This document shows positions 5,899 through 23,388 of a stretch of DNA of 23,388 nucleotides, piece by piece (the stretch's first letter is position 1; the number at the start of each line of letters is the position of its first letter). The DNA comes from a virus. The position numbers and the translations under genes are program-made. The stretch is from positions 1 to 23,388 of the IMG/VR virus record IMGVR_UViG_3300022562_000223. The stretch is one strand, 5' to 3'. The notes under the pieces were generated by a model, which was not told the origin of the DNA, made no database searches, and was given only the letters and a program-made list of their open reading frames with translations.

Positions 5899-8784
5899 AT
5901 GCCCAAAATAAACACTAGCCTCTACGCATTTAACCGTGGGCTGGTATCTCCCTTAGCGCTTGCCCGTACCGATCTTGACCGGTTAGCGTTATCTGCTGAA
6001 ACATTCACTAACTGGATGCCCAGATCCTTGGGGTCGATGATGCTCAGAGCAGGGGCGGCTTATCTGGGGGCAACGGCTTCCAACAATGCGGCAAAGTATA
6101 TCCCGTTTGTTTTCTCCACCGATGATGTAGCACTGGTGGAAGTGACCAATGCACTGGTGCGGGTGTGGGTATCTGATGCACTGGTGACTCGATCAACGGT
6201 CACAGCAGCCTTTACCAATGGCACGTTTGACAGCGATCTGACCGGTTGGACGGATGATGATGAATCCGGGGCTGCATCAGCCTGGGTCACGGGCGGGTAT
6301 CTTGGGTTAACAGGGGATGGGACGAATTTCGCTATCCAAACCCAGCAAGTCACGGTAAATGAGGCCAGTACAGAGCATTCTATTTTGATCGTGATTCAAC
6401 GAGGTCCGGTGATCTTCCGGTGCGGATCGACCGATGGGGGTGATGAGTACATTACCGAAACCACGCTGGATACCGGGTATCATTCGTTATCATTCACACC
6501 CACGGGCGATTTCTATGCACAATTCAAATCACGGTTAAAAAGACAGGTATTGGTTAATTCTATTGCCGTGGAAAGCTCCGGCACCATGACGATAGTAGCC
6601 CCTTGGGTAACGGCTGACCTGCCTAATCTGAGATGGACGCAATCAGGGGATGTGATCTTTGTTGCCTGTCCTGACAAACAGCAGTACAAGATTGAACGCC
6701 GAAGCTCCACCTCATGGTCAGTGGCTGAATATGTCACAACCGATGGGCCATTACGCTCATTAAATACCAGTACCACGACATTAACTGCCAGCGCGGTAAG
6801 CGGAAACATTACCCTGACAGCATCGACCAATCTGTTTAAAAGCACCAATGTAGGATCACTGTACAAAATAACCTCAGATGGCCAGTTGGTGACTTCAGCG
6901 ATCAGCAGTGGCGGTAACTGGACAAACACAATCCGAGTCACGGGGGTCAGTACTTCACGGGCATTTACCATTACCAGAGCAGGCACATGGTCGGGAACAG
7001 TCACATTACAACGCTCATTAACCGCTTCCACGGGACCGTGGGAAGATGTCACCACATACACGACTAATGCCACGGTGTCCTATAACGATGCGCTGGATAA
7101 CCAGATAGCCTGGTATCGCATTGGGGTGGATACCAGTGATTTTAGTACGGCGACGATTACGAACGTAACACAGGCCAATCCCGGTCAGGTGACTACCTCA
7201 GCAGCTCACGGATTTACCACAGGGGAGATTGTAGGCATTACCGGTGTTGTGGGCATGACTGAATTAAACGGCAATTCCTATACGGTAACGGTAGTGGACT
7301 CCACCAATTTCACGATAGGCGTGGATACTTCTGGATACACGGCATACACCTCAGACGGTACGGCGACCTCAGAGGGGCCGGTGACATTAACGCTGGATTA
7401 TCCACTGGGTAATATCGATGGATTTGTGCGGGTCACGGCGTACACCAATGAAACAACGGTGAGTGCCGAGGTCATTACGGATCTGGGGGGATTGACAGCC
7501 ACAGATGATTGGGCAGAAGGGGCATGGTCGGATCGACGCGGCTGGCCTACTGCTGTGGTGCTGGCTGAGGGTCGCTTAACCTGGTCAGGCAAAGACAACA
7601 TCTGGATGTCGGTCAGTGACAGTTATTATTCATTCGACTCTGATACCACGGGGGATTCTGGGCCAATTGATCGCTCTATTGGCGCGGGGCCGGTGGATAC
7701 CATTAACTGGATGGTGTCATTGCGCCGGCTGTTACTGGGTGCTGAGGGGGCTGAATGGGTATGCCGGTCAAACGGGGATGACGAGCCATTAACGCCTACG
7801 AATTTCAACATGAAAACCTTTTCCTCACAGGGATCAGACAACGTCAATGCGGTGAAGGTTGATAACAATGCGTTGTACGTCCAGCGAGGCGGCTACAAAT
7901 TGCTTGAGGTCGCTTACGGGGAATACGGGGAATATGACTCGAATGATCTGACACTATTCTATCCAGATATTGGCAGTCCGGGCATTACCCATATCGCAGT
8001 GCAACGCCAGCCCGATACGCGGATACATTGCGTGCGCTCTGACGGAACGGTGGCCATACTGGTTTATGACAAGGGCGAGAATGTCTTTTGCTGGGTTAAT
8101 TATTCAACAGGCGGGACGGTTGAGGATGTGGTGGTGTTGCCGGGGTCGGGTGGTGAGGATGCGGTGTACTACCTGGTGAACCGCACGATTAACAGTTCTA
8201 CAGTCCGTTATCTGGAGAAATGGGCGTTAGAGTCTCAATGTCAGGGTGGGTCAGTGAGTCGGCAACTGGATTCTCATCTGGTGTTATCACAGGCATCATC
8301 CACCACGATATCAGGACTGGATCATCTGGAAGGTGAAACCGTGTACCTGTGGGCGAACGGCAAAGACTTGAGCAGCTACACCGTATCGAGCGGGGCGATC
8401 ACTGCATCAGAGGCTGTGACCACGGGCTGTGTGGGATTGACCTATACCGGGCAATGGAAATCCACTAAGCTGGCATATGCAGCTGGGTTAGGTACTGCCT
8501 TGACTCAAAAGAAGATTTTACGCCGATTAGGTCTAATATTATACAATACGCATTATCAGGGGCTGCAGTACGGACCGGATTTTGACAATCTTCAGGCATT
8601 GCCGGCGGTGAAAGATGAAACGGCCATTGCGTCGGATACCGTACACAGCACATTCGATGAGGAAAGTTTTATGTTCAACGGTAACTGGGACAGTGATTCT
8701 CGCCTGTGCTTACAGGCTGATGCCCCTAAACCGGTAACTGTATTGGCGGCTGTTATCAGTGTAGAAACACACGACAAGTATTAA
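5899..8784 (+). CDS. Tail tubular protein B (gp12-like nozzle), domain-expanded
   Basis: This 961-residue protein forms the tail nozzle (T7 gp12 is 794). The family start is seen as FNRGLVSPLALARTDL then NWMPRSLGSMMLRAG. Residues about 103-230 hold a jelly-roll, carbohydrate-binding-module-like insert (FTNGTFDSDLTGWT up to FYAQFKSRLKRQVLVNSIAV). Residues 350-415 contain GTWSGTVTLQRS and DNQIAWYRIGVD. Residues about 419-490 are a compact beta unit of the type found in phage nozzles and annotated as E1 FCCH-like (TSAAHGFTTGE, GMTELNGNSYTVTVVD). The core resumes with EGAWSDRRGWPTAVVLAEGRL near 535-555 and SVSDSYYSFD. The ribosome site is weak (GGGTGA immediately before ATG), so coupling to the adaptor gene is likely. 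Inserts may point outward and contact surface sugars. Confidence 0.9.
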   Translation: MPKINTSLYAFNRGLVSPLALARTDLDRLALSAETFTNWMPRSLGSMMLRAGAAYLGATASNNAAKYIPFVFSTDDVALVEVTNALVRVWVSDALVTRSTVTAAFTNGTFDSDLTGWTDDDESGAASAWVTGGYLGLTGDGTNFAIQTQQVTVNEASTEHSILIVIQRGPVIFRCGSTDGGDEYITETTLDTGYHSLSFTPTGDFYAQFKSRLKRQVLVNSIAVESSGTMTIVAPWVTADLPNLRWTQSGDVIFVACPDKQQYKIERRSSTSWSVAEYVTTDGPLRSLNTSTTTLTASAVSGNITLTASTNLFKSTNVGSLYKITSDGQLVTSAISSGGNWTNTIRVTGVSTSRAFTITRAGTWSGTVTLQRSLTASTGPWEDVTTYTTNATVSYNDALDNQIAWYRIGVDTSDFSTATITNVTQANPGQVTTSAAHGFTTGEIVGITGVVGMTELNGNSYTVTVVDSTNFTIGVDTSGYTAYTSDGTATSEGPVTLTLDYPLGNIDGFVRVTAYTNETTVSAEVITDLGGLTATDDWAEGAWSDRRGWPTAVVLAEGRLTWSGKDNIWMSVSDSYYSFDSDTTGDSGPIDRSIGAGPVDTINWMVSLRRLLLGAEGAEWVCRSNGDDEPLTPTNFNMKTFSSQGSDNVNAVKVDNNALYVQRGGYKLLEVAYGEYGEYDSNDLTLFYPDIGSPGITHIAVQRQPDTRIHCVRSDGTVAILVYDKGENVFCWVNYSTGGTVEDVVVLPGSGGEDAVYYLVNRTINSSTVRYLEKWALESQCQGGSVSRQLDSHLVLSQASSTTISGLDHLEGETVYLWANGKDLSSYTVSSGAITASEAVTTGCVGLTYTGQWKSTKLAYAAGLGTALTQKKILRRLGLILYNTHYQGLQYGPDFDNLQALPAVKDETAIASDTVHSTFDEESFMFNGNWDSDSRLCLQADAPKPVTVLAAVISVETHDKY

Positions 8785-8794
8785 GGAGGTTGCT

Positions 8795-9319
8795 ATGCCA
8801 TCAATGGTAGGTAGACCAACAACATATGGAAGCGGTGGGGGATCTTCTCCATCGGCATCGAGCGGTGGGGGATTCGCAGCGGCACAAGGCTGGATGGCAG
8901 CATCTGGGATTGCGGGAGCATTGGGCGCTTATCAGGGTGGCCGGATTGCTCGAACCGTGGGCAGGATGCGCAAACGTATTGCGCAAGATCAGGCGAAACA
9001 AGTTGTGGCCAGCGCTCAACGCCAGGCACTGAACGAGAAGAAGAATGCAGAATTAATTGCCTCCAGAGCCATTGCAGTGGCGGCTGCTGGTGGCGGTGGG
9101 GCTGATGATATTACTGTAACTAACATTGTGGCTGATATTGATGCTGAAGGGGCTTATCGGGCAGCGGTGGCAATGTATGAAGCAGAGACAGAGGCGGCTA
9201 ACCTGCGGTATCAGGGTGAACTGTCAGAATGGGAAGGAAATCAGGCTTACAAAGCGGGTAAGGTCAAAGCCGTAGGATCTTTACTGGAAACAGGGGCAAG
9301 GATATTTGCATATGGCTAA
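8795..9319 (+). CDS. Internal virion protein, gp14-like position
   Basis: This 174-residue protein has a strong ribosome site (AAGGAGG, 8784-8790) before ATG 8795. The first 30 residues are Gly/Ser-rich and flexible. Residues about 28-50 (GGFAAAQGWMAASGIAGALGAYQGG) form an Ala/Gly hydrophobic segment that could insert in membrane. The remainder is Ala/Glu/Lys-rich helix with AAAGGGGADDITVTNIVADID in the middle, a pattern shared with small ejection proteins of podoviruses. Length is close to T7 gp14 (196). Position between nozzle and a 560-residue helical protein supports a packaged ejection protein that could form the outer-membrane part of the DNA conduit. The assignment is by context and composition, not by sequence identity. 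Confidence 0.7.
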   Translation: MPSMVGRPTTYGSGGGSSPSASSGGGFAAAQGWMAASGIAGALGAYQGGRIARTVGRMRKRIAQDQAKQVVASAQRQALNEKKNAELIASRAIAVAAAGGGGADDITVTNIVADIDAEGAYRAAVAMYEAETEAANLRYQGELSEWEGNQAYKAGKVKAVGSLLETGARIFAYG

Positions 9320-10991
9320 GTTACCGGACGTTACCAGTTTAGGCAGCAGACCCGTACCACGACCGGGCGGGATGCCCAATGTGCCTATGCCTCAATCATC
9401 GGGTGTGGCTGAAGCGGTATCGTCATTCAGTGACACGATGGCCAAGATCAAAGAGTACGATGACAAACTTCAGGCTGAGGATGCCCAGAACCGACTGCAA
9501 CAGCGCACCATTGAATTGCGTAACGGGGATAATGGATTCAGCCGGTTAAAGTCCGGGGATGTGGCCAATCGCCCTGTCTATAAGGAATACGATGACCAGT
9601 TCACAGAAGCGGTCAATGAAATATCCGGCTCACTGACTAACGATTATCAACGTAAGTTATTCCAGCAACGGGCGAACGTGGTCAGGATCCAGTATGGCAA
9701 TGACCTGACTAATCACATTATGAAAGAGAAAGAGGCTTACTTTCAGCAAACTGTGGAATCTGGGATAGCGTTGGAAGTACAGAATGCCGGTGAGCACTGG
9801 AATGAGCCAGGCTCGATTAAGCTCTCGGTAGCACGCACCCATCATTTGATCGATCTGAAAGCCGACAAAGACGGGCTACCTTTCGCGGCCAGAAAAGCCC
9901 TGAAGTTACAGGCGACATCCAAAATTCACTCTACGGCGATTGATCAGGCGATAGCAAACGAAAATGCGCTATACGCCAAACAGTATTTTGAGAACAACAA
10001 AAAGGATATCGATGCGACCAAGCATGACGATATCACGAAACTCATTCGCAACACTGAGTTGCGCGTACTATCCCAAACCGTGGCTGATGAGATCATGCCA
10101 CAGAATCTGGAGGAAAAAGATGCTCTGGAAAAAGTACGCAAACAGTATAAAGGCGAAGAAGAAAAGGCAATTGTCGACGCCATTAAAGCCCGATATACCG
10201 AGCAGCGTGACGCAAAGAAACAATCCGAGATATCTGCTACTGACGAAGCATGGAATTACTACAATAATGCCGTCGATGCGGGAAGTGCTGATCCATACGG
10301 ACAGATTCCATTAAACTTGCTCAATGAAATGGACCCACAATCACGCGCTACATTGAAAGCCAAATCGCAAGGGGCTGATTTCAAGAGCGGTGGTGCTGAT
10401 TATTATGCGCTACGCATGCTGGCCATGACCGATCCGAAATCATTCCGTGATCCGCGAAAGACCAATATCCTGTCATACAAACTCTCTGATGCTGATGCAA
10501 AAGAACTGATCAAGCTGCAGACTGACCCACAGGAAATTGATTACTTTGATACTGAGCTATCTATTGTTAATTCAGGGTTGCGTGCCATAAAGGTCGACAA
10601 AAAAGACCTTGATAAAGACAACTCTGACGGGCAGCGTGGCCGGGCATTCATGAACGAAGTCAGGCGCAGACAGAAAGCGTACCAATTGGCTGCCGGTAAG
10701 CCTATGGACGAAGATAAGCTGATGGAAACAGTGGATAAGATGACTATTGAAATTGCCCGTAAAGCAAAACCGTTATTTGGTGAGACTATCCACGACTGGA
10801 CGAATCCTGATTTTCTCCCTGCCTGGATGACAGAGCCGATGGGTAGCGAGAAAACACCAGCATTTGAGGCAGAAATCGAAGGTATTCCCAACGAAATGGT
10901 ACAGGAACTGGCCAAATCCATACGAGATTCCGGGCAACCAGTCACAACAGAGAATATAAAGAAACTGTATTATGGCTCAGCCAAACGATAA
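9312..10991 (+). CDS. Internal virion protein, gp15-like position
   Basis: This protein of about 559 residues is largely helical and hydrophilic, without a signal or membrane helix. ATG 9312 is chosen over the in-frame TTG 9306 because AAGGA (9298-9302) is 9 bases from ATG but only 3 from TTG. It overlaps the upstream gene by 8 bases. After a Pro-rich start (PRPGGMPNVPMPQ) come RNGDNGFSRLKSGDV and YDDQFTEAVNEISGSLTNDYQRKLF, a pattern I recognise from podovirus internal or 'lytic transglycosylase-neighbour' proteins. No catalytic motif is visible. By size and place it corresponds to T7 gp15 (747), which lines the periplasmic ejection channel. It overlaps the next gene by 20 bases, suggesting equal, coupled expression. 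Confidence 0.7.
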   Translation: MAKLPDVTSLGSRPVPRPGGMPNVPMPQSSGVAEAVSSFSDTMAKIKEYDDKLQAEDAQNRLQQRTIELRNGDNGFSRLKSGDVANRPVYKEYDDQFTEAVNEISGSLTNDYQRKLFQQRANVVRIQYGNDLTNHIMKEKEAYFQQTVESGIALEVQNAGEHWNEPGSIKLSVARTHHLIDLKADKDGLPFAARKALKLQATSKIHSTAIDQAIANENALYAKQYFENNKKDIDATKHDDITKLIRNTELRVLSQTVADEIMPQNLEEKDALEKVRKQYKGEEEKAIVDAIKARYTEQRDAKKQSEISATDEAWNYYNNAVDAGSADPYGQIPLNLLNEMDPQSRATLKAKSQGADFKSGGADYYALRMLAMTDPKSFRDPRKTNILSYKLSDADAKELIKLQTDPQEIDYFDTELSIVNSGLRAIKVDKKDLDKDNSDGQRGRAFMNEVRRRQKAYQLAAGKPMDEDKLMETVDKMTIEIARKAKPLFGETIHDWTNPDFLPAWMTEPMGSEKTPAFEAEIEGIPNEMVQELAKSIRDSGQPVTTENIKKLYYGSAKR

Positions 10992-13900
10992 AGAATTACT
11001 GGATAAGATCAAAGATCCCAACTATGTGCGCAGTGTACTGGATGGGACGCTGGATAAGTCCGTGGAATATGGGGTTAAACAGAATCCCCAGTCTTTTGCG
11101 CAAACCTCAAAAGCGGCCAAACAGTTAAACATTCCCATCGATGTCGCTGAACGCCAGTCCGATGAAGTAAAGCGGGTAGCACGCGAAAAAGAAATACTTA
11201 AGAAGATACAGGATACCGAGTACGTCAAGAAAGCATTGGCCAATCCTGATTTCTCTGCCATTGCCCACAATGATGTGGATGCCTTGACGAAGATTGAAAA
11301 AACAGCAAAGGCCACTGGCGCTGGCGCAATACAGGCCACATTGGGTATGTCTGAATCCATATTAAGAACCCCATCTGCTGCCAGACAATGGCTTGAGGGG
11401 ATGAACGAATGGGGTAAGAAATTCCTGCCTCAATGGATGACCGAGAAAGTATTGCCAGATCCTTTTCAGCCTATCGAGCGTGGTTTATGGGTGGGCGGTA
11501 AGCAGATCGTTGCCGGTATGACAGATGCTGCTGATGCTATTCGTGAATCCACACAGAAACTTGCCAAAGACCCTGCCACATTCGGAGAAACATTCAACCG
11601 GATAATGACGAAAGGGGCTGAAGCAGATCAAGCATTTTCAAAAGCCGTGCAAGGTGATATTGAACCATTAGCCAATGTGATCACAGACCCTGAGGCATGG
11701 GCTGGGTTTATTGGTCAGGCTGCTCCATCTCTCTATACCGCGTACAAATCAGGAGGTTCAATCCCGTTTATCGCATGGCTGGAAGGAATGGAAGCGGCTA
11801 ACGATGCGGCTGAGTTTGAGAAAATAACAGGACAACGTATCGATCCGCGCATGTTCATGCAGGCCACGGCACAGGCGGCGGGTATTAATGCTGTGCTGGA
11901 GAAATTTGGATTGGATAAAGTATTTGGGCAAGCCGGGAAAGGCGTGCTGTCATCCACATTGAAAGGCGCATTGGTTGAGGGCGGCACTGAAGGTTTACAG
12001 CAATTCAACAGTAACCTGGCGGCATTGCTGGCCTATAACCCTGAAAAAGATTTATCCGAGGGAGTGATTGGTTCAATCATGGGTGGCGCAGGAACAGGCG
12101 GCCCAATGGGTGGCTTGTCTGCCATTGGCAGAGCGTCTGGCCCCAACTCAGAATTCTCTCGTAATGCGATTGCGGCAGATCGCGCTCACGCCAGCAAGAA
12201 ATCAATGGATACTCTGGTTGAGGAAGTCAAGAAAACAGAATTACACAAGATTGATCCAGAGGTAACAAAACAGTTTCTGGATGATGTGCTGGGGGCTGAT
12301 AACAATGTATTTATCAACTTCGAGGACGCTGATGGATTCTTTCAATCGCACCCTGAGATATTCGAGAAACTGCCCAAAGAAACAGCGGAGGCTATTCGGG
12401 ATTCCATTGGGCTGAGTACGGATGTTGTTATTCCAAAATCAGAGTACATCACTTATTTCAATGAATATCATGATCAGTTATCTGATGTGATTCGTAACGA
12501 CCAGGACGGGATGAGCGTAAAGGAAGCCAATGAGTTTGAGACTACGTTGGCCGAGGATCTGGATCAAAAACTGGATACCATGTTTGAGGAAGGGCAGAAA
12601 CAGGCCGACTTTGAGCAATCAGCCCAGAAAGTCCACGAAGATATCAAAGCCCAGATCATGCGTACCGGACGATTTAAGGAAGATGTGGCCGACAGATACG
12701 CTGCATTGCATACCGCTTTTGCCAAAGTAGCCGCAAAGAAAACAGGCAGGCTGCCGTATGAGGCGTATTTCGAGATCGGACTGACTGTGAAAGCTACGCC
12801 AGTGACGGGTGAAAAGTTAACGCAGGAACCTGCTGCCCTCAAAGAAAACGACAGGGTAATGATGTTTATTGCTGACGAAGAAGGAAACAAAGAAGCTGAT
12901 ATTGGTCATGTAAGAATTCCCGGAGAAAAAGAATCCGTAGTAGCCACCTCTGATGACACATGGGTAACGGTCAAGAATGAGGATTTGGAGTTGATGGATG
13001 AGGGGAGGTTGTTTCAGAAAGAAAGGGGGTTCTATCAACCAGATACTAACATTATTGGGTTGCTGCAAGATGCTGATTTATCTAGTTTTTTGCATGAAAC
13101 TGGTCATTTTTTCCTCGAAACCATATCCCGTATGCCTGAGTTTCAGGAGGAAATGGATAGTACCCTGAAATGGTTCATGCTGGATCGCCCAACATGGGAT
13201 TCTATGTCACTGGAAGATAAGCGGGAATATCACGAACAATTCGCCCGTGGCTTTGAGGCATATCTGATGGAAGGGAAGGCGCCAAGCCTCGAACTGCGCG
13301 ATGTGTTCCAGCGTTTCCGTGACTGGCTGGTGAACATCTACCGATCACTGCGTAACCTCAATGTGCCGATGACTCAGGAAATCCGGCAGGTGTTTGATCG
13401 CCTGCTGGCAACTGATGACCAGATACGGGAAGCGGAAGCGGCCAGAGCCTATGAGCCACTGTTCAAATCCATTGAAGATGCGGGGATGACCGAAAACCAA
13501 TGGAGCGAATACCAACGGCTGGAAGGTGAACGCCGTGATCAAGCCCGTGACGAGCTACAGACACGCTCCCTGAAAGACATGAAATGGATGTCTAATGCCA
13601 AGGCCAAAGCCCTGAGAGAGATCCAGAAATCAGTTAAGGGTAAACGTGCGGCCATTCGTGAACAGGTGGCTAAAGATGTTTCACGTGAAACAGTGTACCA
13701 GGCTATTCGGTTCTTCCGGCGCGGTGAGGTGCTGGATGAAAATGATGAATTAGTAACCTTCGATAATCACCGATTAGATATTGACGCTGTTGAACAATTG
13801 TACGAAGGGGTTAAAACAACACCAAAAGATACTGTTGCCCCTGAAGTAGATACGCTTATGGTAGCTATCGCCAAACTCGGCGGTGTAAAGAAATCAGAGG

Positions 13901-16900
13901 CAGAACAACAGGGTATTGATCCCGCTCACTGGAAGGGCAGAGATGCCATCACATCAAACCAACCGGTATTTGGAAAGCGCATTTTCAGAGAGGACGGACT
14001 TACGTTTGATGATATGGCAACCATTATTTCCCAGTACGGCTATGAAATGGAAGGGGCTAATGATCTGCTGGAGGCTATTTCATCTTCATTGATGGGGAAA
14101 GACCAATACTCGAACCAGGTGGATTGGAATTTGGTAACTTCCACCTATGAATGGGTGGATTGGCGCAAGCTGGGTTACGGGAAATTCGGGATGCTGGCGA
14201 AGGATGGAGTCGACCCTGAAGATGCCGCCCATATGTTTGGCTATTCCTCAGCCGATCTGATGATTCAGGAAATGCTGGAAGCGCCAGATCAAAAAGAATA
14301 CATCGACGCCGTGACTGATCAACGGATGCTGGAAACTTACGGGGATATCACTAATCCGGTGGCCATGGAACGGGCAGCAGAGGAAGCCATTCACAACGAT
14401 GTGCATACGCGAATGCTCCACACAGAACTACGGGCATTGACGGTGGGACAACGTGAAAAAAATGTGCTGGCTAAAGCGGCCAAACAATACGCAGAACAGG
14501 CCATTGCCAACAAAAAAGTCAGGGATATCAAGCCAAACCAGTACATGGCTGCCCAGACGCGCGCGGGGAACAATGCACTTAAGGCACTGGGTAAAGGTGA
14601 TCATGATTCGGCTGTGGATCATAAACGTGCACAGGTACTGAATAATCATTTCTACCGGGCGGCCAATGATGCGTCTAAGTACGTAGATAAGAAACTGAAT
14701 TACTTACGAAAGTTCAGCAAGGAAGGTGTGCGCAAGAACCTGGACACCGAGTACCTGGAGCAGATTGATGACCTGTTGGCTCAGTTTGATATTCGGGCTA
14801 TGTCCGATAAAGCAGCGAAGAAACGCCAGACCCTGAGTGAATTCATCAAACAGCAGGAAGAAGAAAACAGCTTTCAACCGGCTATCGACGAGGCATTGGT
14901 AGAAGAAGCCAAGCGCCAGCACTATAAGAATATGACTTACTCCCAATTCCGTGGGATGGTCGAAACCATTGAAATGATTGAGCATCTGGGCAGGCTGAAG
15001 AAGAAACTGCTCACGGCCAAAGACCAGCGGGAATTTAACCAGCGCATGGATGAGGCCAAGCGGTCTATTGAATTGCTGAGAAATCGGCAGGTTAAAGAGC
15101 GCGGAACGGCTACTGATGTACTTGGTCAGGTAGGGCAGTGGGGTCGACAGTTTGCGGCTATCCATCGCAAGTTTTCATCCATCATCAGGGAAATGGACGG
15201 GAACAAAGATGGTGGCATTATGTGGAATCTGTTCCTGCGCACGATGAATGAGGCTGGGGATAATGAGATCGAAATGCACCAGCAGGCGACAGAGAAGCTA
15301 TCTACATTGTTTGATGCGCTCGATCTTCGTACAGGTTTTGGTAATATCTACGCAGTTAAGCGGGTCATTCCCGGTACAGACATCAGTTTGACTGACGAAC
15401 AGCGGATCATGGTGGCCATGAACTGGGGCAATGAAGGAAACCGGCAAAGGCTGGTGGATGGTGGATTTCCCGGCAAACGCCAGATCACTGAGGCTGACAT
15501 TCAGAAGATTCTCGATACCCTGTCCAAAAAGGAATGGGATTTTGTGCAAGGCGTCTTTGATTTTCTGGAAGAATACCGAACACAGGTTGGTGAGCAGGAA
15601 AAACGACTGACCGGTAAAACACCGAAATGGGTGGAATCAGCGCCTATTGAGACTCGGTACGGTACTTATCGCGGCGGGTATTTCCCAGCCAAGTATGACG
15701 CACAGCTTTCTGACAGAGCATCGATTCTGGAGGCTGTGACTGACTTGCGCATGGCCATGAAAGGCATGTTCGGCGCTGCAGCCACACGCTCTGGCTATAC
15801 CAAGCAACGGGCGCAGGCGATAAAAGACAGGCCGCTATTGCTAACGTTTGACACGATTACCCAGCACGTCAATGAAGTGACGCATCGACTGGCTTGGCAG
15901 GACTGGATCACAGACGCCAATCGGAGCATCAAGGCATTGGCCGGCACGATCCAAAAGTACTATGGCAAAGAGAACCTGGACGAAATGCGCAAATCCATTG
16001 AGGATATTGCCAAGGGTGATACGCCAGCCACCAATGCGTTTGAGCGGTTCATTAACCATATCCGAGTGGGTACCACGATTGTCGGCATGGGGTTCAGGGT
16101 AACTACCGCAGCCATCCAGCCCACAGGTTTTGCCCAGTCTTTTTACCGGGTAGGCAGACCCTGGATGATCAAAGGGATGCGTAAGTTTATCTCAAATCCA
16201 CTGGAAGCCTCACGGGAAGCCAATGAGAAATCAAAGCTCATGCGGGACCGTGACCGCACCATGATGCGGGAAATGAATGAGGTGCTGACCAAGATCAGGG
16301 GCAATAACCAACTGAACTGGGTTAAGGCGCACGCATTCTGGCTGATCCAGAAAACCCAGCGGGGGGTTGATTTACCGACCTGGTGGGGAGCCTATGAAAA
16401 GGCCATTGATCAACTGAAACTGGAAACAGCCCGTGATGATGCCGAACGAGCCGAGATTGAAGCCAAAGCGGTGGCCATGGCAGATCAGGCGGTGATCGAT
16501 TCACAGTCAGGTGGTCAGACCAAAGACCTGGCGCGGATCCAGCGCGGCGGGCCACTGATGAAAATATTCACTAACTTCTATTCGTATTTCTCGGCCACTT
16601 ACAATCTGAACGTGGAAGCATTCAGGAAGATGCAGGTGAACAAAAAACTCAGTGCGCCACAGGCTTATCTGGAATACATGGGTGATCTGATTACGCTTAA
16701 TATTATCCCAGCCATTATGGGTGCATTGATCAGGGAAGGGCTGAAAAACGAATGTGAGGGTGATCTGGAGTGTATTGCCAAGAAAGTAAAAGATGAGCAA
16801 ATTGATTACCTTACAGGCATGACCCCGCTTACCCGTGAACTGGGCGGTGGCATTAAGGCATTAACCGGTGGGCAGTATTTTGGCTATCAGGGACCACCCG

Positions 16901-17124
16901 GCATTCGGTTCCTGTCAGATACTCAGAAGTTCTTTGTTCAATCGAAGCAGGGTGAACTGGATGACGCATGGCGCAAAGCATTTCTGAATGTTGTGGGGCA
17001 ACTTACCCATCTGCCAGCTGGCCAGTTGAATACGATTATTGATGGATTTCAAGCGATAGAAAACGGCGATGTGGAAGGTGCCGGTACTGTGTTAGCTCCA
17101 TTGGCGGGGCCGCCGAGGGAGTAA
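10972..17124 (+). CDS. Giant internal virion protein with zincin-type HETGH motif
   Basis: This 2050-residue protein is the largest in the window and sits in the gp16 position (T7 gp16 is 1318). Residues 1-130 are charged helices. Residues about 335-390 include GGTEGLQQF and a Gly-rich hydrophobic stretch. Residues 704-716 read SSFLHETGHFFLE, so H708-E709-T710-G711-H712 is an HExxH zinc site. E762 in FARGFEAYL, 50 residues later, is a candidate third ligand. Residues about 1090-1180 have a YGDITNP/AAEEAIHND pattern known from large polyvalent proteins. Residues 1694-1990 resemble the LPD38-type C-terminal domain, with a hydrophobic helix at about 1904-1924. No lytic transglycosylase active site was recognised. 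It is inferred to be ejected with the DNA and to act on peptide bonds in the envelope, host or virion. The start overlaps the previous gene by 20 bases with only a weak ribosome site. Confidence 0.82.
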   Translation: MAQPNDKELLDKIKDPNYVRSVLDGTLDKSVEYGVKQNPQSFAQTSKAAKQLNIPIDVAERQSDEVKRVAREKEILKKIQDTEYVKKALANPDFSAIAHNDVDALTKIEKTAKATGAGAIQATLGMSESILRTPSAARQWLEGMNEWGKKFLPQWMTEKVLPDPFQPIERGLWVGGKQIVAGMTDAADAIRESTQKLAKDPATFGETFNRIMTKGAEADQAFSKAVQGDIEPLANVITDPEAWAGFIGQAAPSLYTAYKSGGSIPFIAWLEGMEAANDAAEFEKITGQRIDPRMFMQATAQAAGINAVLEKFGLDKVFGQAGKGVLSSTLKGALVEGGTEGLQQFNSNLAALLAYNPEKDLSEGVIGSIMGGAGTGGPMGGLSAIGRASGPNSEFSRNAIAADRAHASKKSMDTLVEEVKKTELHKIDPEVTKQFLDDVLGADNNVFINFEDADGFFQSHPEIFEKLPKETAEAIRDSIGLSTDVVIPKSEYITYFNEYHDQLSDVIRNDQDGMSVKEANEFETTLAEDLDQKLDTMFEEGQKQADFEQSAQKVHEDIKAQIMRTGRFKEDVADRYAALHTAFAKVAAKKTGRLPYEAYFEIGLTVKATPVTGEKLTQEPAALKENDRVMMFIADEEGNKEADIGHVRIPGEKESVVATSDDTWVTVKNEDLELMDEGRLFQKERGFYQPDTNIIGLLQDADLSSFLHETGHFFLETISRMPEFQEEMDSTLKWFMLDRPTWDSMSLEDKREYHEQFARGFEAYLMEGKAPSLELRDVFQRFRDWLVNIYRSLRNLNVPMTQEIRQVFDRLLATDDQIREAEAARAYEPLFKSIEDAGMTENQWSEYQRLEGERRDQARDELQTRSLKDMKWMSNAKAKALREIQKSVKGKRAAIREQVAKDVSRETVYQAIRFFRRGEVLDENDELVTFDNHRLDIDAVEQLYEGVKTTPKDTVAPEVDTLMVAIAKLGGVKKSEAEQQGIDPAHWKGRDAITSNQPVFGKRIFREDGLTFDDMATIISQYGYEMEGANDLLEAISSSLMGKDQYSNQVDWNLVTSTYEWVDWRKLGYGKFGMLAKDGVDPEDAAHMFGYSSADLMIQEMLEAPDQKEYIDAVTDQRMLETYGDITNPVAMERAAEEAIHNDVHTRMLHTELRALTVGQREKNVLAKAAKQYAEQAIANKKVRDIKPNQYMAAQTRAGNNALKALGKGDHDSAVDHKRAQVLNNHFYRAANDASKYVDKKLNYLRKFSKEGVRKNLDTEYLEQIDDLLAQFDIRAMSDKAAKKRQTLSEFIKQQEEENSFQPAIDEALVEEAKRQHYKNMTYSQFRGMVETIEMIEHLGRLKKKLLTAKDQREFNQRMDEAKRSIELLRNRQVKERGTATDVLGQVGQWGRQFAAIHRKFSSIIREMDGNKDGGIMWNLFLRTMNEAGDNEIEMHQQATEKLSTLFDALDLRTGFGNIYAVKRVIPGTDISLTDEQRIMVAMNWGNEGNRQRLVDGGFPGKRQITEADIQKILDTLSKKEWDFVQGVFDFLEEYRTQVGEQEKRLTGKTPKWVESAPIETRYGTYRGGYFPAKYDAQLSDRASILEAVTDLRMAMKGMFGAAATRSGYTKQRAQAIKDRPLLLTFDTITQHVNEVTHRLAWQDWITDANRSIKALAGTIQKYYGKENLDEMRKSIEDIAKGDTPATNAFERFINHIRVGTTIVGMGFRVTTAAIQPTGFAQSFYRVGRPWMIKGMRKFISNPLEASREANEKSKLMRDRDRTMMREMNEVLTKIRGNNQLNWVKAHAFWLIQKTQRGVDLPTWWGAYEKAIDQLKLETARDDAERAEIEAKAVAMADQAVIDSQSGGQTKDLARIQRGGPLMKIFTNFYSYFSATYNLNVEAFRKMQVNKKLSAPQAYLEYMGDLITLNIIPAIMGALIREGLKNECEGDLECIAKKVKDEQIDYLTGMTPLTRELGGGIKALTGGQYFGYQGPPGIRFLSDTQKFFVQSKQGELDDAWRKAFLNVVGQLTHLPAGQLNTIIDGFQAIENGDVEGAGTVLAPLAGPPRE
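13081..13260 (+). other. Putative zinc metallopeptidase core within giant protein
   Basis: This segment encodes residues 704-763. HETGH (13093-13107) supplies two His ligands and the catalytic Glu. E762 in GFEAY (codon 13255-13257) is the likely third ligand, a gluzincin-like spacing. Hydrophobic residues flank the motif (SSFL before, FFLE after), as in an active-site helix. Similar zincin domains are described in phage polyvalent proteins. Activity itself is not shown by the sequence. Confidence 0.7.
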
Positions 17125-19541: not shown

Positions 19542-19546
19542 TTATG
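19539..19546 (+). repeat. 8-bp direct repeat, left edge of HNH insertion
   Basis: TAATTATG spans the fibre stop codon (TAA 19539-19541) and the HNH start codon (ATG 19544-19546). An identical copy is at 20158-20165. Confidence 0.6.
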
Positions 19547-20152
19547 AATAATTTGACTATTATAAAAGATTTTTCAACAGAGAAAAATGGGATAAAAAGA
19601 CGTATGTTATTATGTCGCTGTGTTTGTGGGAATACTACTGAAATAAGGCGACATAATTATGGGAAAACATTGTCGTGTGGGTGCTTAGCAAAAGAAAAAG
19701 CAAGAAAAATGAAAACAAAACATGGTGGCGCATACTCCTATGAGTATAGGTCATGGAGACACATGAAAGAACGGTGTTTGAATAAAAATAATCACGCTTA
19801 CAAAAATTATGGAGGTAGAGGGATATCCATAAGCGATAGATGGGTAAATGATTTTTCTGTATTTCTTCAAGATATGGGAGAACGTCCATCTTTGAGCCAT
19901 ACATTAGAGAGAACAGATAACAATAAAGGATACTATCCAGATAATTGTTATTGGGCTACAAAAAAAGAACAGGGCAGAAATAGGTCTACTACTATATTGG
20001 ATGAAGATTCAGTTTCTTTGATAAAAGCGCATTTAAAATACAAATGGTTACCTCAAGTTAAGATAGCTAAATTATTTAATGTTACAAGTTCGTTAATATC
20101 TTCAATAAATGCTGGAAAAGTATGGAGAGATGTTCCATGTTTTCCAATCTAG
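19544..20152 (+). CDS. HNH homing endonuclease (free-standing)
   Basis: This 202-residue mobile endonuclease starts 2 bases after the fibre stop. Residues 24-47 hold a CRCVCG...SCGC zinc-binding pair (Cys 26, 28, 45, 47). Residues 68-143 show the HNH-type signature: W71, RC at 77-78, YGGRGI (89-94), RW (99-100), DMGERPS, LERTDNN (121-127) and NCYWAT (134-139). Residues about 165-197 look like a helix-turn-helix (VKIAKLFNVTSSLISSINAGK) for DNA binding. It makes DNA breaks that drive its own spread into phages lacking the gene. It is strikingly AT-rich (about 28% G+C in 19561-19620 by hand, against 50% in 17041-17100) and has no clear ribosome site, both signs of recent arrival. Confidence 0.9.
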   Translation: MNNLTIIKDFSTEKNGIKRRMLLCRCVCGNTTEIRRHNYGKTLSCGCLAKEKARKMKTKHGGAYSYEYRSWRHMKERCLNKNNHAYKNYGGRGISISDRWVNDFSVFLQDMGERPSLSHTLERTDNNKGYYPDNCYWATKKEQGRNRSTTILDEDSVSLIKAHLKYKWLPQVKIAKLFNVTSSLISSINAGKVWRDVPCFPI

Positions 20153-20165: not shown

Positions 20166-20447
20166 TCTATGGAGATAGATGGAGTATGGAAAGCTGGCGT
20201 ATGGAGCACCTCAGTGTGGAGCAATTGTGTTTGGTATGAACCAGGTTGTGCAGCAGCACCGGCACCAGCGCCAGCCCCAGCGCCAACACCGGCAAGAGAA
20301 AGTACAGGCGGCGGGGTAAGCAGTGATTTTAGACGCAACGCAGAGAAACGGAAGAAACGCAGATTACAGATCGAGGACGATGAGGAAATCATGCGCATGA
20401 TACAGATGGCCATGCCAGAACTTATAAAGGAGTATTTCGATGACTAG
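20163..20447 (+). CDS. Small Trp-repeat protein
   Basis: This 94-residue protein starts at ATG 20163, with another in-frame ATG at 20169. The N-terminus has Val-Trp pairs every 5-6 residues (GVWKAGVWSTSVWSNCVW). Residues about 31-43 are an alternating Ala-Pro linker (APAPAPAPAPTPA). The C-terminal half is charged and helical, basic (RRNAEKRKKRRLQ) then acidic (EDDEEIMRMI). Proteins with GVWxxGVW repeats are familiar next to phage fibre genes, but I know no established function. The ribosome site is poor (AGG at 20151-20153, just inside the HNH stop). The stop overlaps the first spike gene by 8 bases. A fibre-associated structural or assembly role is a guess. Confidence 0.65.
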   Translation: MSMEIDGVWKAGVWSTSVWSNCVWYEPGCAAAPAPAPAPAPTPARESTGGGVSSDFRRNAEKRKKRRLQIEDDEEIMRMIQMAMPELIKEYFDD

Positions 20448-22107
20448 TGTAACCACCAGTCAGCGGTTCGGTGTGAATGCGTCGATGGCGGTTAAGGTGC
20501 CATGTAAGGCCGCATCAACATCTAATATTACTCTTTCTGGGGAACAAACCATCGATGGCGTATCTGTGGTTGCTGATGATCGTGTATTGGTAACAGGCCA
20601 GACAGACGGTACTGAGAATGGGATTTATAAAGTTGCATCAGGCTCATGGAGCAGATCACAGGACTGGAACGACAGTAAAGACTGCGTGCAGGGTACGGCT
20701 GTGTATGTTCATTCGGGTACTAGCAATGCAGGGTGGTATGGGATATCTACCAGCGGGACGATAACGCCTGGAACCACTGATGTAACGATAGGGCAGTCGA
20801 TACCAGGCGGCAGTAATGATGCAAATATAAATGTACAAAGAACTGATACCTCGGCGGAATTAACTACTGTACATAACTTCAATGAAAAACGAATAACAAT
20901 AATGGGAGTTGATTACGGCGCTTCGTTATCTGCTGATGGCGTAGACGATTGGTACACCGTATTAACTAATGCAATGACTGATGTTAATGCATCTGGGGGC
21001 GGGGTTATCTTTTTCCCATGTGGGACTTTTTTGGTCGGTACAGCATTAGCTATTCCATCCAACGTTGTTTTAATGGGTAGCGGGAAAGGCAATACCACTA
21101 TAAAAAGAGGTTTTACTGGGAACCTTGCAACGCAAGCCGGTTACTCTGGATTAATGTATTTAACTATAGATGGTGATACTGCCACTCAAGGAGCAGGGAA
21201 GGGGATTGTGTTTTCTGGGTCTACTCCATCAGCCTACCATTTGTTGGTTGAGATTAAGAACTTTGTTGAGCCTTGTTTGGAGTTTGGGGTGGATGCTGGA
21301 GCTACTTTTAGGGGTATTTGTTCGGATTATTACACCACAGGCTCAGTGGGTTCTGTTGGCGCTGTAACGGTTAACGGCACAGATACGGGGGCAACATCAA
21401 GGCATTTTATAGGGTGTGAATCTGGGGGATGCACTTTATACGACTTTGGTGGGGCTAATGATTTATACGTAACTGGCGGGTTTTCTAATCTTCTAATTTT
21501 TGGCGCTGCTGGTTCTAAAATATTTATCAACAATATGCGAATCGGTAACACAGGAACCACGACTATATCATCTGATAATTGTAGATTAGCTGATTGTGTT
21601 TTTGCTGGCCCAGTTATTATTAGCGGTGACGGGAACCATTTTGACTGCGAAGTACCTAGTTGGAATATTACTGATAATGGGACAACAAATCAGATAACCC
21701 ATCCTACGATTACTTACACAAGCTCATGGACATCATCTGGTACGGCTCCATCGTTAGGCAATGGGACTTTAAACGCTTACTACTCCAGACAGGGCAGCAA
21801 GATAAAAGTCACTGTTGATTTTACAATAGGCTCAACCTCCACCGTAGGGACTGGCGCATGGCGTTTTTCGCTTCCAAGGGCGGATTATTCTTCTACCGTA
21901 CAAATGTGTGGGAGTGGCTGGTGTAGTAATGCAGCCGGGACAGCGGCAGCAACTTTTGCTGTTAGGGTTAGCCCTGGGAATCAATATGTAGAATTGTTTT
22001 ATGCCGATTCATCAGAGGCTCCTCAGAATGTTGGGGCAACTACCCCGGCGGCAACATGGGGTACAGGCGCTACAGTTAGATTTTCATGTGAGTATATAAC
22101 TACATAA
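20440..22107 (+). CDS. Tail spike 1, beta-helix receptor-binding protein
   Basis: This 555-residue protein has AAGGAG (20427-20432) 7 bases before ATG 20440. Residues 1-115 are an anchor domain found in many podovirus fibres (SNITLSGEQTIDGV, DRVLVTGQTDGTENGIY, GTTDVTIG). Residues about 150-420 look like a right-handed beta-helix of the pectate-lyase type. They open with VDYGASLSADGVDDWYTVLTNA, the usual entry motif of such spikes, and continue with GGGVIFFPCGTFLVG. Residues about 425-555 form a separate beta-sandwich C-terminal domain (LGNGTLNAYYSRQGSKIKV). It probably binds, and possibly cleaves, surface polysaccharide. No catalytic residues can be named by eye. Middle and end are more AT-rich than the anchor, suggesting module exchange. 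Confidence 0.85.
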   Translation: MTSVTTSQRFGVNASMAVKVPCKAASTSNITLSGEQTIDGVSVVADDRVLVTGQTDGTENGIYKVASGSWSRSQDWNDSKDCVQGTAVYVHSGTSNAGWYGISTSGTITPGTTDVTIGQSIPGGSNDANINVQRTDTSAELTTVHNFNEKRITIMGVDYGASLSADGVDDWYTVLTNAMTDVNASGGGVIFFPCGTFLVGTALAIPSNVVLMGSGKGNTTIKRGFTGNLATQAGYSGLMYLTIDGDTATQGAGKGIVFSGSTPSAYHLLVEIKNFVEPCLEFGVDAGATFRGICSDYYTTGSVGSVGAVTVNGTDTGATSRHFIGCESGGCTLYDFGGANDLYVTGGFSNLLIFGAAGSKIFINNMRIGNTGTTTISSDNCRLADCVFAGPVIISGDGNHFDCEVPSWNITDNGTTNQITHPTITYTSSWTSSGTAPSLGNGTLNAYYSRQGSKIKVTVDFTIGSTSTVGTGAWRFSLPRADYSSTVQMCGSGWCSNAAGTAAATFAVRVSPGNQYVELFYADSSEAPQNVGATTPAATWGTGATVRFSCEYITT

Positions 22108-22139: not shown

Positions 22140-23388
22140 ATGACCAGCGTAAACACAAACCAACGATTTGGCGTTAACTCCTCCAAGGCGGTGAAAGTCC
22201 CTTGTCGTGTTGCCTCGACTTCAAACATCACGCTCTCTGGCGAACAGACCATTGATGGCGTGGCAGTGGTTGACGGTGATCGCGTACTGGTAACTGGCCA
22301 GACAGACGCCTCAGAGAATGGCATATACGATGCTGATACAGGCGCATGGACAAGGGCTAAGGACTGGGATGGTGTTTATGATGTGGTGACAGGGACAATT
22401 GTTTTTGTCACGGCAGGCACTTCTTACAACGGTTATTGGCAGGTATCAACCACAGGAACAATAACGGTAGGCACTACAGATGTCTCTATCGTGCAGACAG
22501 TTCCTGGCGCTTACGCTGATGCGCTGCTAGAAGTGCTGAATACAGATTCCAACGCGATTGCTACTACGCAGCACGAGGTCAATGAAAGAACCATCCACCT
22601 CTTAGATTTTATGTCTGCCGCTCAAAGAACTGATTATGGCGCTTATACGGCAAGCGTGGACATTTCTGGAGCTATTACCAATGCTATTGCTGCCCTTCCT
22701 TCAGTTGGTGGGACAATACACTGTGGCAGAGGGAATGGATTAATTTCCAGCAAGGTCACTTTTAATAAGGCTGTCAACTTTTTGGGCGAAGGGATAGAAG
22801 AATCAGCTAATCCTGGCGGCACGACATTCACAAAAGCTGCGGCTTTAAATGATATAGGATTTGAGGTCACTGTAGGGGGGGTTACTTTTGATAACTTTGT
22901 CCTCGACGGGGAGAATGGTAACGGTGGTAATGGTATTCAAGTTAAAGGCAATCGATTTAAGATAGGTCGGTTGGCTGTTTACAATCAAGGCAATGATGGG
23001 GTGAGAATTGGTGACGACGCTGGAACCAGCGTTAATGTCAACCTATGGCAAATTGACAACCTAATCACTCGATCCAATGGTAGACATGGGTTATTTATTT
23101 CTGATGACGACGGGGCGACGGTTGCCAGTGCTAATGCCAACGCAGGAACTCTTATTCATCTTGATTCATCCAGTAATACTGGGGATGGACTGAAAGTAGA
23201 TAACGCATTTTTTAATGTTTTTATTAACCCTGTATGTCAATCCAACACAGGAGCGGGGATAAGATTAACCCAATACGCAAAAAAGAATACCTTCTTCGGT
23301 GGGGATACCAATGAAGGGAACACTGCTGGCGAGTTTATTATCGAAAGCGGCGCTGTCACTAACCAGCTTATCGGTGTCCAGCCTGAAG
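22140..23388 (+). CDS. Tail spike 2, beta-helix protein (partial at window end)
   Basis: The frame starts at ATG 22140 and is still open at the window end (416 codons visible). GAGG at 22125-22128 is 11 bases upstream, a somewhat long spacing. Residues 1-72 match spike 1 at 55 of 72 positions by eye, so both have the same anchor. After about residue 150 the two diverge completely. Here HLLDFMSAAQRTDYGAYTASVDISGAI and GGTIHCGRGNGLISSKV lead into a beta-helix with turns such as GNGIQVKGNRFKIGRLAVYN, GVRIGDD and GAGIRL. It probably targets a different glycan from spike 1. The C-terminal domain lies beyond the window. Confidence 0.85.
   Translation, partial: MTSVNTNQRFGVNSSKAVKVPCRVASTSNITLSGEQTIDGVAVVDGDRVLVTGQTDASENGIYDADTGAWTRAKDWDGVYDVVTGTIVFVTAGTSYNGYWQVSTTGTITVGTTDVSIVQTVPGAYADALLEVLNTDSNAIATTQHEVNERTIHLLDFMSAAQRTDYGAYTASVDISGAITNAIAALPSVGGTIHCGRGNGLISSKVTFNKAVNFLGEGIEESANPGGTTFTKAAALNDIGFEVTVGGVTFDNFVLDGENGNGGNGIQVKGNRFKIGRLAVYNQGNDGVRIGDDAGTSVNVNLWQIDNLITRSNGRHGLFISDDDGATVASANANAGTLIHLDSSSNTGDGLKVDNAFFNVFINPVCQSNTGAGIRLTQYAKKNTFFGGDTNEGNTAGEFIIESGAVTNQLIGVQPE

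Follow-up and report, generated by a model that had tools for sequence, protein, structure and literature searches.

The window analysed here (the whole stretch of 23,388 nucleotides) is a 23.4-kb virus fragment with podovirus late genes, and the 2050-aa protein encoded in its gp16 position is, by homology and gene order, a polyvalent protein of the Bbp10 type in a BPP-1-like podovirus. As aligned with its relatives, this protein has a chassis made up of a conserved N-block, a zincin domain and a helical core. A slot for exchangeable cargo lies immediately ahead of the zincin, which is thus placed at the site where these podoviruses swap effectors that are probably injected. The favoured reading, with about an even chance of being right, is that the zincin would process the polypeptide of which it is part.

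The gp16-position protein and its gene neighbours

The late genes of the window are ordered as head-tail connector, capsid, two tail proteins, gp14-like protein, gp15-like protein and the 2050-aa open reading frame, the last three being:

8795..9319, + strand: gp14-position internal virion protein (PHROG 418 internal virion protein, E = 1.7e-19)
9306..10991, + strand: gp15-position internal protein of the short class, 561 aa, no SLT or lysozyme (PHROG 10475 and 1044)
10972..17124, + strand: gp16-position polyvalent or ejection-type protein, 2050 aa, Bbp10 family, PHROG 9880 (open reading frame)

The gp15-position protein matches only the N-terminal parts of PHROG 10475 and PHROG 1044. The 2050-aa protein is matched by the PHROG 9880 profile over residues 683-2037 (E = 0) and by Bbp10 of Bordetella phage BPP-1 over residues 683-2040 (40% identity); its named relatives also include proteins of Caulobacter Rauchvirus phages, Pseudomonas phage AF and others. 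As the earlier note had proposed, it is plausibly delivered with the genome: it would enter the virion and leave it together with the DNA, as T7 gp16 or N4 vRNAP does.

Elsewhere in the window, two tandem tail-spike-like genes (20440-22107 and 22140-23387, the second continuing past the fragment end) have near-duplicate N-termini (88 of 139 residues identical), and a 202-aa open reading frame amid the tail genes (19544-20152) resembles, by eye only, an HNH-type homing endonuclease. The tail-tubular-B-like protein (961 aa, 5899-8784), which has a Pfam E1_FCCH match at residues 427-490 (E = 4.5e-15), is long for its PHROG profile (length 712) and so seems to contain an inserted domain.

Conservation of the zincin domain

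13018..13371, + strand: zincin (metallopeptidase) domain, about residues 683-800 (alignments, AlphaFold2 model)
13093..13107, + strand: HETGH, predicted zinc-binding and catalytic motif, residues 708-712 (invariant, 159/159)
13234..13236, + strand: E755, likely third zinc ligand (invariant, 109/109 and 159/159)
13255..13257, + strand: E762, conserved, in the same helix as E755 (158/159)

Residues 683-800, approximately, very probably form a zincin-type domain, as the earlier note had suggested from the HETGH motif. HETGH is the sole HExxH of the 2050-aa protein (composition predicts 0.034 per protein), and a chance occurrence is ruled out by the conservation of HExxH in 159 of 159 full-length zincin-bearing homologues, for which IMG/VR, GTDB genomes and three phage records were the sources. 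The constraint on the domain is strong: 109 aligned zincin domains (selected at less than about 75% mutual identity), with a mean column identity of 27%, all have H708, E709, H712, E755, P771 and Y790, and residues 691-720 and 751-780, at 55-67% identity, rank with the most conserved parts of the protein. In the AlphaFold2 model of residues 640-880 (mean pLDDT 79, but mostly about 90 or higher in the HExxH and third-ligand helices), HExxH lies in a predicted helix at residues 703-720, and E755 and E762 both lie in another at residues 747-767. E762, previously put forward as the third ligand, is indeed conserved, but E755 is more likely on this alignment, being the invariant glutamate of the second conserved helix, with E762 two turns further on. 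A single zinc would thus be bound via H708, H712 and E755, with E709 as the general base.

The peptide FLHETGHF had helped to find the first set of homologues, which came from the zincin region and so favours HETGH; the search was therefore redone with the C-terminal core only. The resulting second set, found only via two core peptides more than 1000 residues away, is unbiased; it was built on a closer alignment, a single-sequence query having found little and a broad alignment having no usable stretch. HExxH is directly visible in 102 of its 110 zincin matches (window included), and the remaining eight are all from one clade. Loss of the motif in these eight loci was considered and rejected: seven have HExxH upstream of an insert, and the other (L091) is on a contig that ends at the insert, hence has no sequence upstream of it. 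Where a core-bearing open reading frame has no zincin match, it is truncated at a contig end, broken or a fragment. Loss of HExxH in close homologues, which would have spoken against the earlier note, was therefore seen in no interpretable core-found locus, and every core-bearing open reading frame that reaches the region has the motif. In L156 (about nt 7860-8537) the zincin is just upstream of the core in another reading frame, a frameshift that is either real or due to assembly. Four relatives (L010, L018, L044 and L084) have a second HExxH, of the form HE(I/V)QHxIQ, 190-300 residues before the zincin, and Pfam DUF6782, a putative metallopeptidase, matches two of the N-termini scanned.

The domain is homologous to Bbp10 (40% identity), of which residues 700-1000 are a seed of the zincin family CLCA_X (Lenart et al. 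2013, PMC3650047), but has no clear match to a curated peptidase family (Pfam, 107 zincin domains), the best of the kind being Peptidase_M3 (E = 0.011). In a Foldseek comparison with the PDB the first eight ranks are all anthrax lethal factor and the twelfth is IrrE, none of them significant (E of at least 0.096, TM about 0.2), and comparison with viral models gives significant matches, apparently to the same family. Alignment with the MPTase region of N4 vRNAP by hhalign is weak and based on a single sequence (probability 5%, E 0.0075).

The zincin of the Bbp10 protein family is thus already known, as CLCA_X since 2013. For polyvalent proteins in general, zincin-like domains (MPTases) were described in 2017 by Iyer et al., who put forward two kinds of role for them, autoprocessing or an attack on host targets (PMC5512222). 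Novelty of role, as claimed in the earlier note, was overstated. What is new relative to the literature searched is the layout of chassis and slot, the seam motif and the check on whether the zincin replaces a transglycosylase, all described below.

A conserved chassis with an exchangeable slot

10972..12789, + strand: conserved N-block, residues 1-606 (N-block HMM)
11056..11331, + strand: LPD22 domain, residues 29-120 (Pfam PF18834, E = 1.8e-12)
12790..13017, + strand: cargo slot, short in the window phage, residues 607-682 (distance from N-block end to HExxH)
13549..17121, + strand: conserved C-terminal core, about residues 860-2050, mostly alpha-helical (alignment, AlphaFold2)

The N-block is covered by a fraction of about 0.9 or higher of the 159 homologues over most of residues 31-600, and LPD22 was found in 73 of the 74 N-termini scanned. 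Measured with an HMM of the N-block, the distance from its end to HExxH ranges from 33 to 1792 aa among 109 non-redundant homologues (median 501) and is 102 aa in the window phage. Slot lengths and groups from psiblast mapping were discarded as unreliable, the alignment having bridged cargo; the residue counts are still valid. Slot content is unrelated in 68 of 84 pairs that have similar cores, and the N-block, zincin and core co-vary (Spearman 0.31-0.51, versus 0.01-0.07 for the slot). Recognised cargo comprises ART-PolyVal (26/74), the nucleases PBECR1, PBECR3 and PBECR5, zeta toxin, GNAT, RES, RadC, LPD3, LPD23, LPD37 and others. The layout marks where these podoviruses exchange probably injected effectors. 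Nine non-redundant members, including the window phage, have a short or empty slot (33-136 aa), and all of them keep the catalytic residues; cargo release alone therefore cannot be the constraint on the zincin.

One clade has a second slot inside the zincin, with domains inserted between HExxH and E755 (roughly 160-370 aa). These inserts differ between phages (L088, L089, L092, L094, L096, L097 and L100), several being of ART type: six were scanned, of which three have ART-PolyVal above the Pfam cut-off and a fourth has a sub-threshold match. They are framed by a constant seam, mostly ...GDLGQS and xQGG(D/E)PGTPG(E/D)LPPGRTPEEVW. L093 and L095 have no such insert, and their downstream sequence is nearly identical. 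Variable inserts between the two zinc-ligand helices of MPTases were already noted by Iyer et al. (PMC5512222).

The AlphaFold2 model of the core (residues 861-2050) is confident and mostly helical (mean pLDDT 86.6), and comparison with the PDB gave no significant match; 7eyb, a T7 core-protein entry, appeared with one chain at rank 8 (E = 1.3, TM 0.1). The label "gp16-type" consequently rests on gene position.

Candidate seams at the slot edges

12817..12825, + strand: [LF]xQ seam after the N-block, LTQ, residues 616-618 (motif position)
13009..13017, + strand: [LF]xQ seam before the zincin, LFQ, residues 680-682, followed by conserved R685-G686 (motif position)

An [LF]xQ motif recurs at both edges of the slot and is a candidate processing site, as judged from its position and recurrence. 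Of 100 proteins, 57 have it in the first 15 residues past the N-block; of 109, 63 and 37 have it in the two 15-residue windows ahead of the zincin. The background in the core and slot interior is 9-11%. The enrichment persists after clustering at 50% identity, and its P-values are too small because they assume independence. At the seam before the zincin, Q682 and R685 are each conserved in 95 of 107 proteins and G686 in 98; common descent of the domain accounts for part of the motif's conservation there. Where ART domains are inserted in the zincin loop, they finish with a similar xQ-GG seam, and [LF]xQ may instead serve as a linker in the structure or be a tail typical of ART domains, which often end in this way. 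Cleavage after glutamine is not known as an established zincin specificity.

Possible roles of the zincin

Self-processing by the zincin is favoured by the invariance of HExxH and E755, the strong conservation of the domain, its position at the slot boundary, the effector-like cargo, the [LF]xQ motif at both slot edges and the similar seam of the ART inserts. There is also a published precedent in DdrB of phage P1, which is processed before packaging and whose own MPTase has been proposed as the responsible protease (PMC5512222). Cutting of its own polypeptide by the zincin, whether in cis or in trans, would take place at the linkers that join N-block, cargo and core, for which the [LF]xQ seams would be the best candidate sites, and would free the parts during assembly or after entry. 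With the slot of the window phage nearly empty, the main cut there would part the N-block from the core. Counting against self-processing are the catalytic residues kept by short-slot members, N4 vRNAP, which also has an HExxH domain and is packaged uncut (PMC5512222), and the other readings of [LF]xQ given above, together with the glutamine specificity that cutting there would require. No [LF]xQ was found near the reported processing size of DdrB, and a literature search found no cleavage product, virion proteome or zinc assay for any member, and nothing usable on the virion proteome of a relative. A bolder, unlikely extension is that Bbp10-type proteins are phage polyproteins in which the zincin cuts at [LF]xQ seams framing exchangeable effector cassettes, including the ART cassettes inside the protease itself; if so, one ejected chain would deliver several separate effectors.

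An injected zincin that cuts a host protein after entry, for example a defence or regulatory protein, is a somewhat unlikely alternative to self-processing. The adjoining cargo is effector-like, as in other polyvalent proteins, anthrax lethal factor and IrrE, both zincins with other proteins as substrates, are among the weak Foldseek matches, and members with little or no cargo retain the catalytic residues; an effector, however, would probably come and go as the cargo does, whereas the zincin co-varies with the chassis and is never missing in an interpretable locus. For the choice between self-processing and attack on host proteins by polyvalent zincins, the Bbp10-type family offers a clean test, because its zincin is invariant and at a cargo boundary, candidate seams are present and there are culturable phages of Caulobacter vibrioides CB15, a laboratory host that is harmless.

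The invariance of the catalytic site regardless of cargo, together with the late-gene location, would also suit an assembly protease that cuts not itself but, in trans, a different virion protein (the scaffold, gp15 or the capsid). This is quite improbable, as no seam of the [LF]xQ[GASPEK] type was found in the connector, scaffold, capsid, gp14 or gp15 proteins of the window, with the proviso that the true specificity may differ.

Peptidoglycan cutting by the zincin in place of the T7 gp16 transglycosylase, to open the wall during ejection, had been suggested by the gp16 position of the protein and by the lack of a recognised transglycosylase. The latter observation is correct for this fragment: Pfam found no transglycosylase in the gp16-like or gp15-like protein, neither of which has a recognised muralytic domain, and the gp15-position protein has no Pfam match at E<=0.01. 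The suggestion itself is weakened by the relatives. Among gp15-position proteins of the long class (673-765 aa, n = 38), 32 have a muralytic domain (SLT in 29, GH108 in two and Phage_lysozyme2 in one), compared with 0 of 48 of the short class, window included (Pfam, non-redundant set), and 0 of 74 gp16-position N-termini (Pfam). Lysozyme on gp15-like proteins has precedent in K1E and K1-5 (PMC8954989). Since relatives have their muralytic domain in gp15 and the zincin does not vary between the two classes, it is judged not to substitute for the transglycosylase, and replacement as its main role was rejected. The domain also has no Pfam or NCBIfam match to a known peptidoglycan-peptidase family, and a peptidoglycan peptidase is very unlikely. 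Database entries for the Caulobacter phage and BPP-1 relatives bear the labels "lysis protein", "lysin" and "crystallin beta/gamma motif-containing protein"; no muralytic match backs the "lysin" labels.

Equally improbable is a structural zinc-binding fold that keeps the HExxH geometry and has lost cutting, a reading that accords with the lack of reported activity for the family and with the insert of roughly 160-370 aa that parts the two zinc-ligand helices in one clade, but not with the general base E709, which is as invariant as the histidines (159/159) and would be dispensable at a zinc site of purely structural function.

Comparison with known systems

The window protein resembles T7 gp16 in following gp14-like and gp15-like genes and in being large and mostly helical, but the N-terminal lytic transglycosylase of gp16 is absent from it and its core has no significant structural match. 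N4 vRNAP, for which a structure preprint reports a conserved HExxH domain (PMC12633501), is a giant ejected virion protein, as the window protein probably is, with that domain (C1) likewise ahead of a large helical C-terminal part; the C-terminal parts of N4 vRNAP have no detectable similarity to the core, and the window protein contains no RNA polymerase.

The published CLCA_X consensus is HExxHxxxD (PMC3650047), whereas its last position (716 in the window protein) is mostly glutamate here (E in 89/109, D in 5/109), as it is in the seed Bbp10 itself. Bbp10 of BPP-1, a Rauchvirus, is a direct homologue with HExxH in the same place (HESGHFFLE) and the same position after a gp15-like gene, although the gp15-position protein of BPP-1 belongs to the long class (720 aa) and that of the window phage to the short class (561 aa), without SLT.

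The zincin, or MPTase, is the commonest domain of polyvalent proteins, with 12 published clades (PMC5512222). The window protein and its relatives share with these proteins the combination of HExxH and a glutamate in the next helix, the variable inserts between the helices, and the large chain that joins the MPTase with LPD or effector domains, here LPD22 and, in relatives, ART, PBECR and zeta toxin.
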